DNA of 64,000 bases from Lachnospiraceae bacterium (lineage in GTDB: Bacteria; Bacillota; Clostridia; Lachnospirales; Lachnospiraceae): the NCBI GenBank assembly GCA_017431515.1, contig JAFRKV010000038.1, forward strand, positions 124,001 to 188,000, read 5' to 3'. Position 1 is the first letter of the stretch; the number at the start of each line of letters is the position of its first letter. Positions 22,849-26,580 of this stretch are shown piece by piece. The translations under genes and the position numbers were made by a program. A model generated the notes under the pieces. That model saw only the letters and a program-made list of their open reading frames with translations. It searched no databases and had not been told where the DNA came from.

Positions 22849-23964
22849 ATGAGCAACTTTTTCCAGCCGACATTCGGCAACCGACCGGAACAGATTGTAG
22901 GGCGGGACGGTGAAATTAACGCGTTTATCAGTGGGTTAAAAGAACCCATTGGAGCGAGAGAGCGTTGCACTCTTTTCCTTGGTCAGCGGGGAATGGGTAA
23001 AACGGCGCTTTTATTGGAAATTGCAGATCGTGCTGCTGCCGCTGGCTTTATCGTTGCAAGAGTGACTGCATTTGAAGGCATGCCCTCCGCTATTATCGAG
23101 CAAATTCAGCTCAATGGTTCCCGCTATTTTAAAGATGAGAAAAAAAGTTTATCCGGCGTTACAGTTGGAGCAATGGGTTTTTCGTTCGGATTGGCCTTTT
23201 CGGAGGCGGCTAATCAACAATACGGATTCCGCGCAAAAATGTCCCTTCTTTGCGAGAGGTTGGAGGAAAAAAAGAAAGGTGTGCTGATTTTGATCGATGA
23301 GGTCCAGACATCAGCGGCTATGCGGGAAGTCGCAACTGCCTATCAGGAACTTGTTGGAGATCATCGAAACATTGCGATCGGAATGGCCGGACTTCCTTAT
23401 GCAGTATCCGGTGTTTTGAATGATGAGGTATTGACTTTTTTAAACCGTGCATGCAAGGTGAATCTCGGATCCATCTCGATTGCATCCATAAGGGCGTATT
23501 TTGAACATGCTTTCCGATCCATGAATATCAGCTGTCCTGAGCCGATACTCGATCTTGCTGCTGAGAAGAGTAGAGGATTGCCTTATTTTATGCAGCTTTT
23601 GGGATATTATTTGACGCTTTATGCAAAAGATACATCCGCTATAGATAAAGAAACCCTGAAAAAAGCGGAGTCCTCGGCAATTCGTGATTTGGAGGATAAC
23701 GTTTTTAAACCAACCTTAGCGCCACTTTCTGACAATGACAGATTTTTCTTGATGGCAATGGCAAGATGCAAGGATCCGATTACTACTAACGAACTACAAG
23801 AACAGCTTGGTTCCCAGGCTTCTTCACTTCAACCTTACAGAAAAAGACTTTTGGATACCGGGATTATTGAGGCGCCGCGAAGGGGAGAACTGGTCTTTGC
23901 AGTTCCTTATCTGCGGGAATACTTGCTGGATGAAGAGGAGAGCGGGTTTCATGTAAGGAGATAA
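22849..23964 (+). CDS. AAA-family ATPase with duplicated 3' end
   Basis: A 371-residue ATPase: Walker A GQRGMGKT (45-52), Walker B GVLILIDEVQ near 142-150, an arginine-rich lid and a C-terminal winged-helix region around ITTNELQEQLGSQASSL. The class is a general AAA_16-like accessory ATPase; function is not known. The last 13 residues, from LLDEEE to SGFHVRR, are identical to the C-terminus of the acylphosphatase at 25177, because 48 bp of DNA are duplicated (23925-23972 and 25419-25466). The native C-terminus has probably been replaced. ATG 22849 lacks a strong ribosome site (AGCGAGG). Confidence 0.8.
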   Translation: MSNFFQPTFGNRPEQIVGRDGEINAFISGLKEPIGARERCTLFLGQRGMGKTALLLEIADRAAAAGFIVARVTAFEGMPSAIIEQIQLNGSRYFKDEKKSLSGVTVGAMGFSFGLAFSEAANQQYGFRAKMSLLCERLEEKKKGVLILIDEVQTSAAMREVATAYQELVGDHRNIAIGMAGLPYAVSGVLNDEVLTFLNRACKVNLGSISIASIRAYFEHAFRSMNISCPEPILDLAAEKSRGLPYFMQLLGYYLTLYAKDTSAIDKETLKKAESSAIRDLEDNVFKPTLAPLSDNDRFFLMAMARCKDPITTNELQEQLGSQASSLQPYRKRLLDTGIIEAPRRGELVFAVPYLREYLLDEEESGFHVRR

Positions 23965-24727: not shown

Positions 24728-25180
24728 ATGGATGCAATCCTGATCAAAGAGATGTCATCAAAGGATCTGGTGGAAATGAAGACACTGTTCCGATCTGTTT
24801 TCAGCAGTCCGCCATGGAATGAGGACTGGAGCGACGAGCAACAACTGGAGGAATACCTGAAAGATCTGACAGAGGTACGGGGTTCCCTCCTGTTTGGTCT
24901 GTATGAAGCAGAACAGCTTATAGGGATTTCCATCGGGAAGATCAAACACTGGTATGGCGGGACGGAGTATTACATTGAGGAGTTGTGCATCCGGAATGAT
25001 TATCAGGGAAAAGGCTATGGGAAAGCGTTCTTTACGCTCATAGAAGGAAAGATCAAAGAACGGGGTCTCCATGTCATCTATCTGATGACGGACAGAAACC
25101 AGCCTGCATACGAGTTCTATCAAAAGATCGGATTCCGGGAGTTGCCGGAACTTACTTCGTTTTTTAAGGAATTGCCATGA
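24728..25180 (+). CDS. GNAT family N-acetyltransferase
   Basis: A 150-residue protein with the GNAT fold. The acetyl-CoA binding motif is NDYQGKGYGKAFFTLIE, preceded by the strand YIEELCIR and followed by YLMTDRNQPAYEFYQKIGFRE, the family's C-terminal motif. The acceptor is unknown: a small molecule or a protein amine. ATG 24728 follows GAAAGGGG. The stop overlaps the acylphosphatase start as ATGA, so the two are coupled. Confidence 0.9.
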   Translation: MDAILIKEMSSKDLVEMKTLFRSVFSSPPWNEDWSDEQQLEEYLKDLTEVRGSLLFGLYEAEQLIGISIGKIKHWYGGTEYYIEELCIRNDYQGKGYGKAFFTLIEGKIKERGLHVIYLMTDRNQPAYEFYQKIGFRELPELTSFFKELP

Positions 25181-25458
25181 GGGGACGGATTGTAAGAAAA
25201 CGGATTGTGGTATCCGGCCGTGTTCAAGGGGTTGGATTCCGATATACGGCTTCCCATGCTGCGCAGATGCTCGGACTGACAGGCTGGGTCAGAAATGATT
25301 TCAGCGGGACAGTAACCATGGAACTACAGGGAGAGGAAGAACTGATCAGCCGGATGGCGCCCCTCCTGGAACAGGGCTCCTGGATCAGGATCACGGAGTG
25401 GAGCGAAAAAGTGATCCCGCTGGATGAAGAGGAGAGCGGGTTTCATGTGAGGAGATAA
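25177..25458 (+). CDS. acyP: Acylphosphatase
   Basis: A 93-residue acylphosphatase that hydrolyses carboxyl-phosphate bonds such as acetyl phosphate or 1,3-bisphosphoglycerate. The active-site loop GRVQGVGFRYT supplies the phosphate-binding Arg22, and GWVRND supplies Asn40. The C-terminus (LDEEESGFHVRR) is standard for the family, which marks this gene as the origin of the 48-bp segment also found at the end of the AAA ATPase gene. Coupled to the GNAT gene by an ATGA overlap. Confidence 0.93.
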   Translation: MRGRIVRKRIVVSGRVQGVGFRYTASHAAQMLGLTGWVRNDFSGTVTMELQGEEELISRMAPLLEQGSWIRITEWSEKVIPLDEEESGFHVRR

Positions 25459-25506: not shown

Positions 25507-25677
25507 ATGCTTTGTGACCACTGTGCGAATTACGAATATGATGAGGACGACGAGGCCTGGTACTGCGGGGTGAACATGGATGAGGATGATTATTATCGCT
25601 TTTTGTCCGGAGGAAATAAGAATTGTCCGTTTTACCGGACCGATGACGAGTATGAGGTTGTAAGGCATCAAATGTGA
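25507..25677 (+). CDS. DUF6472-like small cysteine protein
   Basis: A 56-residue protein (MLCDHCANYEYDEDDEAWYC at the start) with four cysteines, at residues 3, 6, 20 and about 40 (KNCPFYRTDDEY), in a strongly acidic context; the pattern suggests a small metal-binding fold. This layout matches DUF6472 proteins, which are abundant in Lachnospiraceae and have no assigned role. GGGAGA precedes the start; ATG 25504 is an alternative one codon upstream. It lies 48 bases after the acylphosphatase stop. Confidence 0.8.
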   Translation: MLCDHCANYEYDEDDEAWYCGVNMDEDDYYRFLSGGNKNCPFYRTDDEYEVVRHQM

Positions 25678-25716: not shown

Positions 25717-25745
25717 TTGACGACAAGATATTCTTTTGCTATTCT
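25717..25745 (+). promoter_or_regulatory. Promoter of the type III antitoxin RNA
   Basis: TTGACG (25717-25722), a 17-base spacer and TATTCT (25740-25745). Transcription would start near 25752, about 23 bases before the first 36-nt repeat. Confidence 0.75.
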
Positions 25746-25774
25746 ATGGTTGAAAAGATGCGGTTACACATCTG

Positions 25775-25882
25775 TTGGGGTTCCGCCTCCACAAAGAGCG
25801 GTCGAGGTTATTGGGGTTCCGCCTCCACAAAGAGCGGCCGAGGTTATTGGAGTTCCGCCTCCATCAAGAGCGGCAAGATGTA
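25775..25882 (+). repeat. 36-bp tandem repeat array (3 units)
   Basis: Period 36, starting TTGGGG, TTGGGG and TTGGAG, with common core TTCCGCCTCCA. There are no spacers between units. Short reading frames across it encode 12-residue repeats (GVPPPQRAAEVI in one frame), but they lack ribosome sites. Confidence 0.92.
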
Positions 25883-25890
25883 ACCTATTA

Positions 25891-25920
25891 CAAGGACAGG
25901 GCAACCTGTCCTTGTGGATT
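25891..25920 (+). terminator. Terminator between antitoxin repeats and toxin gene
   Basis: A perfect 10-bp stem, CAAGGACAGG with CCTGTCCTTG, loop GCAA, followed by TGGATTTTAT. Partial read-through at this position sets the antitoxin-to-toxin ratio in characterised type III systems. Confidence 0.85.
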
Positions 25921-25937
25921 TTATAGGAGATTAATCG

Positions 25938-26516
25938 ATGAAAAAGGGTTTTTATTTTGTAGATGACGATTATATCAGCTATTTAAAGAGCAAAGAGATT
26001 GAAGCAAGAGGTTTTACAACCGTTCCTAACGTGGATTATACATCCCGCAAGAAGTTTTTATATGGAACAGTACTTGAAATTGATGGACTCACCTATTTTG
26101 TCCCGGTGAGTTCTTATAGCAAAAAGCAGCAGGACAACATTTTAATCATGATCAAATCGAGAGGGAAGATGGAAAGGGAGGGATCGCTGCGATTTAATTA
26201 CATGATTCCGGTTCCGATAAAATGCCTGCGATATTTTGATTTTAATAAGGACCCAGACGTGGATGAAGGACGAAAGCGTCTTCTTGATAAGGAATACCGT
26301 TTCTGTAAAAGCAAAACGGCTGCTATTCAACGTCAGGCCAAGCGGACATATGATAGGGTAATATTTGCAAAGGACATGGTTCGAGATTCGCACACAAGAC
26401 TGATTGCAGCAAGCATCCCCGATGCAAGCCTCGTTCTGTTACATGGCAACCATTTCATCGCGGCGAAAAAACCGGCGGAATTCAACTGTGCGGTGATGGA
26501 GTTTCTGGAGAAATAA
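25938..26516 (+). CDS. ToxN/AbiQ-like endoribonuclease toxin with foreign C-terminus
   Basis: A 192-residue protein. Residues 1-140 follow the ToxN/AbiQ family: FYFVDDDYISYLKSKE, KFLYGTVLEIDGLTYFVPVS, NYMIPVP and the late helix KSKTAAIQRQAKRTYDRV. Known ToxN enzymes cut mRNA and their own antitoxin. From about residue 141 the family's usual ending is missing and is replaced by roughly 50 residues resembling the C-terminus of an alpha/beta hydrolase: KDMVRDSHTRLIAASIPDA, then HGNHFIAAKKP, holding the hydrolase's catalytic-His position. So the toxin appears chimeric, and activity is uncertain. AGGAG precedes the ATG by nine bases; 17 bases separate the start from the terminator. Confidence 0.8.
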   Translation: MKKGFYFVDDDYISYLKSKEIEARGFTTVPNVDYTSRKKFLYGTVLEIDGLTYFVPVSSYSKKQQDNILIMIKSRGKMEREGSLRFNYMIPVPIKCLRYFDFNKDPDVDEGRKRLLDKEYRFCKSKTAAIQRQAKRTYDRVIFAKDMVRDSHTRLIAASIPDASLVLLHGNHFIAAKKPAEFNCAVMEFLEK

Positions 26517-26550
26517 TCATCTTTCCGGTGTTGCAGGACACATGCATGGA

Positions 26551-26580
26551 AAAAGAGCGGTACTATTCGCCGCTCTTTTA
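26551..26580 (+). terminator. Bidirectional terminator
   Basis: AAAAGAGCGG pairs perfectly with CCGCTCTTTT around a nine-base loop. It serves the toxin gene (stop 26516) and, read on the reverse strand, the methyltransferase ending at 26615. Confidence 0.88.

Follow-up and report, generated by a model that had tools for sequence, protein, structure and literature searches.

The window analyzed here, a 64,000-nt stretch from a Lachnospiraceae bacterium (contig JAFRKV010000038.1, positions 124,001–188,000), harbors at 25717–26580 a locus that is likely to be a chromosomal type III toxin–antitoxin (TA) module of the ToxIN family, probably working and equipped with a re-capped toxin. The toxin is an in-frame chimera, in which ToxN residues 1–144 are followed by the C-terminus of an alpha/beta hydrolase (residues 145–192) that replaces the last helix of ToxN. 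The ToxN homologue, the terminator and the repeats given as ToxIN-family criteria in the accessible part of PMC5086642 are all present, which places the module in the family. New here are the exchanged toxin end and, for the clade of the window, a pairing between the leader and the trailer of the antitoxin RNA. A first-pass annotation had proposed a ToxIN relative, a proposal supported by a highly significant ToxN match and by pseudoknots covarying in relatives; the hydrolase tail and the leader–trailer pairing were not part of its account and were found in the follow-up. All features of the locus described below lie on the plus strand. The genome of the window (G000) comprises 2.35 Mb in 62 contigs and is 81.8% complete, with the locus inside a 319-kb contig.

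The ToxN core

Relatives were collected by an alignment-based scan of named genomes, giving 97 pattern matches and 92 relatives, of which 80 were kept, and one viral contig and a Clostridioides phage were added. The window protein as sole query found no relative in either collection scanned, whereas the alignment query did.

The toxin gene (25938–26516) encodes 192 aa, with the ToxN part at 25938–26369, the junction being placed within a few codons, and the hydrolase part plus stop codon at 26370–26516, as defined by protein and DNA matches. The earlier suggestion that the first 140 residues resemble ToxN/AbiQ was borne out by a profile search of the whole gene, in which Pfam ToxN_toxin (PF13958) covered residues 5–145 with an E value of 8.2e-27 (94.8 bits, cut-off 25); the match spans residues 5–145 or 5–146, and the remainder is not ToxN. 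The AbiQ profile of PADLOC (E 5.2e-24) and the structures of AbiQ and of ToxN from Bacillus thuringiensis, Pectobacterium atrosepticum and E. coli (E 1.8e-7 to 0.0057) matched as well. All 29 core columns conserved at 90% or more among 71 aligned relatives are retained. The active site of the E. coli ToxN ribonuclease consists of Lys33, Thr52, Ser53 and Lys55, according to the accessible part of PMC8860590. Counting from the invariant Gly, K39 (71/71 relatives) fits Lys33, and S58 and S59 (the latter in 68/71) fit Thr52 and Ser53, while HMMER instead aligned Lys33 with K38. The exact position of Lys55 carries no Lys in the window toxin, with S61 and K62 adjoining.

The hydrolase tail

Alpha/beta-hydrolase C-termini from many genomes of the family match residues 143–191, the best with 65% identity to an Abhydrolase_1 gene of genome G229, whose DNA match starts at 26372 (69% over 139 nt). 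Three weak NCBIfam alpha/beta-hydrolase matches cover residues 148–191 (E 0.047–0.15), and a Pfam scan of the toxin returned no hydrolase family. The tail keeps 13 of the 16 conserved hydrolase columns, and the three missed ones (141, 143 and 148) lie at or ahead of the start of its clear similarity; this comparison used 17 good rows, L021 and L022 being misread. The kept residues include D146 and H172, which we take to be the catalytic Asp and His of the hydrolase. The toxin carries no more than roughly the last 48 residues of the hydrolase, not a complete Abhydrolase_1 fold with its active site. Judged from the sequence, neither half looks decayed.

The replaced ToxN helix carries the motif C-x-F..LE, which is present in the four solved ToxN/AbiQ toxins and fits strictly in 69 of 71 frames, L131 and L132 having one inserted residue; its Cys and Glu occur in all 71 aligned full-length relatives. 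The window toxin lacks this motif, which was derived from the relatives and is not among the criteria in the accessible part of PMC5086642. It has a Cys at residue 184, where none of the 17 aligned hydrolases has one. AlphaFold docks the captured hydrolase helix, residues 179–191, at the helix-5 site of ToxN, and a control without guiding sequences also puts it there, with low confidence.

A foreign end is absent from all 71 toxin frames that reach 150 aa or more among 81 loci (80 genomic and one viral), ten shorter frames having been excluded from this count. Likewise, no row among the matches listed combined the ToxN part with the tail, either in the family sample (298 other genomes, 59 matching) or in the order sample (391 other genomes, 27 matching at 1e-8), which overlap and are both counted besides the genome of the window; rows starting at residues 60–118 and ending near 190 were treated as stretched hydrolase matches, which was checked for L018, L020 and L022 only. 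Long matches in L089, L130 and L076 were rejected as spurious because they run through stops.

The closest full-length toxins, L061–L065, are 55–61% identical to the window toxin over the best segment. The toxin tree groups the window with L061, L062, L064 and L065 (98/91), with a long end branch for the window (0.58) and a bootstrap that had not settled. In two close relatives, L078 and L137, the toxin frame is disrupted and reaches its first stop after 47 and 83 aa, respectively, next to antitoxin units that are preserved; L078 retains one unit, and the leader–trailer pair of L137 has a mismatch.

Antitoxin repeats and their pseudoknots

Three 36-nt units stand head-to-tail at 25775–25882, matching the three tandem 36-bp units of the first pass: unit 1 at 25775–25810, unit 2 at 25811–25846 (97% identity) and unit 3 at 25847–25882 (72% identity), with a Tandem Repeats Finder score of 172. 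They form one of two direct-repeat families of at least 32 nt within the 64 kb (16-nt seed). Each unit follows the pattern U-GGRG-UU-CCGC-CUCC-A, loop, GCGG, whose interleaved stems can form an H-type pseudoknot, a fold for which the first pass had suggested checking. In unit 1, stem S1 pairs 25776–25780 with 25787–25791 and stem S2 pairs 25783–25786 with 25798–25801; the pseudoknot is shifted by +36 in unit 2 and by +72 in unit 3, where an A-U pair replaces G-U in S1 and the 3′ end diverges into the trailer. The repeat sequence, which the first pass did not recognize, belongs to a ToxI group found upstream of close ToxN relatives.

The arrangement of promoter, repeats, terminator and toxin, correctly likened to ToxIN at the outset, recurs in relatives, and 62 of 78 upstream regions (window included) hold a tandem array with a period of 34–38. 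Pseudoknot covariation was assessed on 12 distinct arrays (13 rows) picked by exact leader–trailer complementarity. In register, 91.0% of cells are paired, S1 in 100%, versus 25.7–53.4% when the pairing partners are slid, and both partners have changed in 15 of 33 pairs. A pseudoknot scan gave 3.09 per region versus 0.95 in shuffles, a count into which chance sites and terminator hairpins enter as well, the window's own included.

These observations bear on the notion that the array is a different sort of element, such as a CRISPR, a riboswitch or a coding repeat, merely preceding a ToxN gene. Rfam at gathering scores yielded one tRNA only over the window, so that no family covers the repeats; however, the recurrent order and the preservation of the pseudoknot through unit variation make such an element scarcely credible. 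At relaxed limits, the best Rfam match near the array was a snoRNA model (E 0.67), which was taken as chance.

The unit junctions read GGUUAUUGG. Since other type III systems yield adenine-ended antitoxin products, as described in the accessible parts of PMC8860590 and PMC4627078, our guess by analogy is that the precursor would be cleaved after the A of GGUUAUUGG.

Leader–trailer pairing

Upstream of the array, the minimum free energy and centroid folds place a leader hairpin (25756–25773, stem AGAUG/CAUCU), whose loop holds GGUUAC (25762–25767). This hexamer is complementary to the trailer GUAACC (25880–25885), which lies 3′ of the unit 3 pseudoknot at the end of that unit, and pairing of the two can close off the array as a long-range pseudoknot. 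An exact leader–trailer pair was present in 15 of the 79 loci searched, all of them within one 20-row toxin clade; of the other clade rows, L066, L069 and L124 have no pair of this kind, L089 lacks an array, and the contig of L103 starts inside the gene. Three versions of the pair occur within the clade, GAUUAC/GUAAUC, GAUUGC/GCAAUC and GGUUAC/GUAACC, the last being confined to the window; this amounts to two compensated changes. The stem of the leader hairpin also shows compensatory variation among relatives, although no more than three pairs were picked up by the script for L072 and L074.

In a position-anchored test on 20 loci (the 15 plus L066, L069, L124 and the broken L078 and L137), loops and trailers of the same class gave mean stems of 6.3–7.0 bp, versus 3.9–5.4 bp for different classes. 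Own pairs reach 6 bp in 13 of the 20 loci, and the script missed the third unit of L067, L068 and L083, which therefore fall short. The same length is reached by 117 of 380 cross pairs, since loci of one class share loops, and by 9 of 47 outside the clade. By eye, a local hairpin (for instance GAGCAAA...TTTGCTC) seems to stand at the 5′ end of arrays outside the clade (e.g., L104, L128 and L140), in place of the leader–trailer pairing.

No mention of a leader–trailer helix was found in the accessible parts of the type III TA literature (PMC8860590, PMC5086642, PMC4627078 and PMC5772629). Under the passive-turnover model, in the part of PMC5772629 available, antitoxin stability decides abortive infection, and the pairing would be a new element in the stability control of type III antitoxin precursors.

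Transcription and translation signals

The promoter proposed in the first pass, TTGACG (25717–25722) and TATTCT (25740–25745) with a 17-nt spacer, is present at 25717–25745 as a consensus match, but such sites are no commoner than chance in the 1.3 kb at the locus (3 found versus 2.2 expected from shuffles). A similar TTGACA/TATAAT-like pair was seen by eye at the same place in close relatives. Given where the −10 box lies, transcription is expected to begin near 25752. The perfect hairpin between antitoxin and toxin (25890–25915) likewise exists, with 11 perfect pairs rather than the 10 reported (arms 25890–25900/25905–25915; 12 pairs in the RNA fold, 13 counting G-T). This terminator-like hairpin has a weak T-tract, which is broken (GGATTTTAT). 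A ribosome binding site, AGGAG (25925–25929), is followed 8 nt further on by the start codon.

Behind the toxin, a 10-bp hairpin with a 9-nt loop and a T-run (26551–26579) is probably a terminator common to the toxin and the convergent methyltransferase gene; it does not appear in the hairpin scan output, the loop limit of the scan being 8 nt. This hairpin holds AAAGAGCGG and its complement, and the same 9 nt occur in units 1 and 2, with 8 nt in unit 3; the sharing may be due to chance.

Genomic site and origin of the fusion

The ToxIN locus is flanked by acylphosphatase and methyltransferase genes, and a DUF6472-like frame ending at 25677 lies just before it, 39 nt ahead of the −35 box. In G301, of the same genus, 1.1 kb separates the acylphosphatase and methyltransferase genes, and this interval holds a RelE-family toxin and a helix-turn-helix protein (L045:2572–3302, minus strand), with the DUF6472 gene on the other side of the acylphosphatase; the site has therefore taken different TA modules. 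The neighbors of the locus gave weak or generic PADLOC matches only, with no sign of a defence island among them.

No 5′ part of the hydrolase is left at the locus. The tail matches no other place in the window genome, whose other hydrolases are 26–35% identical, and both chimera and tail are absent from the other three genomes of the genus, G299 having a 34% relative. In G379 (L154:2336–4254), a 3′ remnant of the hydrolase is followed by a gene of 197 aa, a copy of the window's methyltransferase with an internal deletion, and a further hydrolase-like piece (39%), and the remnant near the deleted methyltransferase hints that a resident hydrolase may perhaps have been overwritten by ToxIN.

Another 3′-end exchange was observed in the window: the last part of an AAA ATPase gene (22849–23964) corresponds to the 3′ end of the acylphosphatase gene 1.5 kb further downstream (25177–25458; 48 nt, 96%), whereas the ATPase relatives in G168 and G002 end differently. 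In G621 (L155:2819–3595, minus strand), a primase of the TOTE conflict system runs in frame into an internal segment from the tail's hydrolase family (Pfam AEP-TOTE, E 9.5e-40; Abhydrolase_1, E 2.8e-5), and the remaining hydrolase sequence lies behind it in other frames. With this case in mind, conflict genes may land repeatedly in this hydrolase family.

Activity of the module and alternative explanations

In the mechanism envisaged, one promoter would produce an RNA composed of the leader hairpin, three 36-nt pseudoknots and the trailer, and a leaky terminator would pass a minority of transcripts into toxN. The ribonuclease ToxN would cut the precursor between the pseudoknots, the products would hold the toxin inactive, and loss of antitoxin, for example in phage infection, would free ToxN. 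The leader–trailer pairing would close the precursor and, we infer, shield its ends until processing. The last helix of the hydrolase would stand in for helix 5 of ToxN, and a toxin with this substitute would still fold and work. On balance, the toxin is somewhat more apt to be active than not. The fuller proposal, that the ToxI arrays of the clade are closed by a long-range leader–trailer pseudoknot protecting or timing their processing and that the foreign helix keeps the window toxin working with Cys 184 as an adaptation, is put forward only tentatively and is less likely than not to hold in full; the idea of adaptation arises because no Cys is found there in 17 hydrolases, while the last helix of ToxN has one in 71/71 rows.

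Several points count against the reading as a working module with a re-capped toxin. All seven conserved C-terminal ToxN columns are absent from the window toxin. The confidence of the captured helix is moderate (71–80) and drops to 50–57 in the control, residues 155–177 are disordered in the first model, and AlphaFold may know the ToxN fold. S2 is paired in only 65–79% of cells in the register of the window, because the L072/L079 group lies outside it. As the rows of the covariation set were required to have a leader–trailer match, that helix is 100% paired by construction and the compensated changes are the evidence, while the position-anchored test is fairer yet noisier.

The main rival, which we consider rather unlikely though it deserves weight, is a dead or weakened toxin: recombination would have removed the last helix, leaving an incidental tail and an antitoxin array as a leftover. 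The near-invariant Cys and Glu of the lost helix, which is found in all four solved toxins, the disorder of most of the tail in the models, and decay nearby in the tree, with broken frames beside intact-looking antitoxin units, all speak for it. Against it, the frame is open with the conserved ToxN core complete, the tail has kept its own conserved residues, and the model continues to seat a helix at the helix-5 position. The tail's conservation, D146 and H172 included, would suit a tail with its own job, such as tethering the toxin to one of the hydrolase's partners or tuning its stability in a differently regulated ToxIN. This is improbable, since the same conservation may mean only a recent fusion, and three quarters of the hydrolase, including the expected nucleophile, are absent, so that no hydrolase activity is expected. 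An assembly error in this metagenome-derived genome could be suspected from its fragmentation and incompleteness and from the lack of a second chimera copy in the samples scanned; it is very improbable, as the fusion is in frame inside the 319-kb contig and both flanks, the acylphosphatase and DUF6472 genes ahead of it and the methyltransferase gene behind it, come from a neighborhood of the same genus.

The toxin is a natural experiment on whether ToxN tolerates the exchange of a nearly invariant helix, a question that matters for its folding and RNA binding.

Comparison with known systems

The ToxIN systems of P. atrosepticum, B. thuringiensis and E. coli (2xd0, 4ato and 7d8o) have their own last helix C-x-F..LE, in contrast to the hydrolase C-terminus of the window toxin, and the leader–trailer helix of the window is not mentioned for them in the portions of the literature available. 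AbiQ/antiQ of Lactococcus lactis (4glk) has low sequence identity (20%), another repeat sequence and a native toxin end. CptIN of Eubacterium rectale (4rmo) is further from the window toxin than ToxN is and has longer antitoxin units, according to the accessible part of PMC5086642. The systems most similar to that of the window are those of the gut Clostridia Lachnospiraceae bacterium C6A11 (L063), Clostridia bacterium ABMPRH_312_1 (L062), L061, L064 and L065, which have similar units and a similar leader–trailer helix, but all five retain the native toxin end that the window has exchanged.
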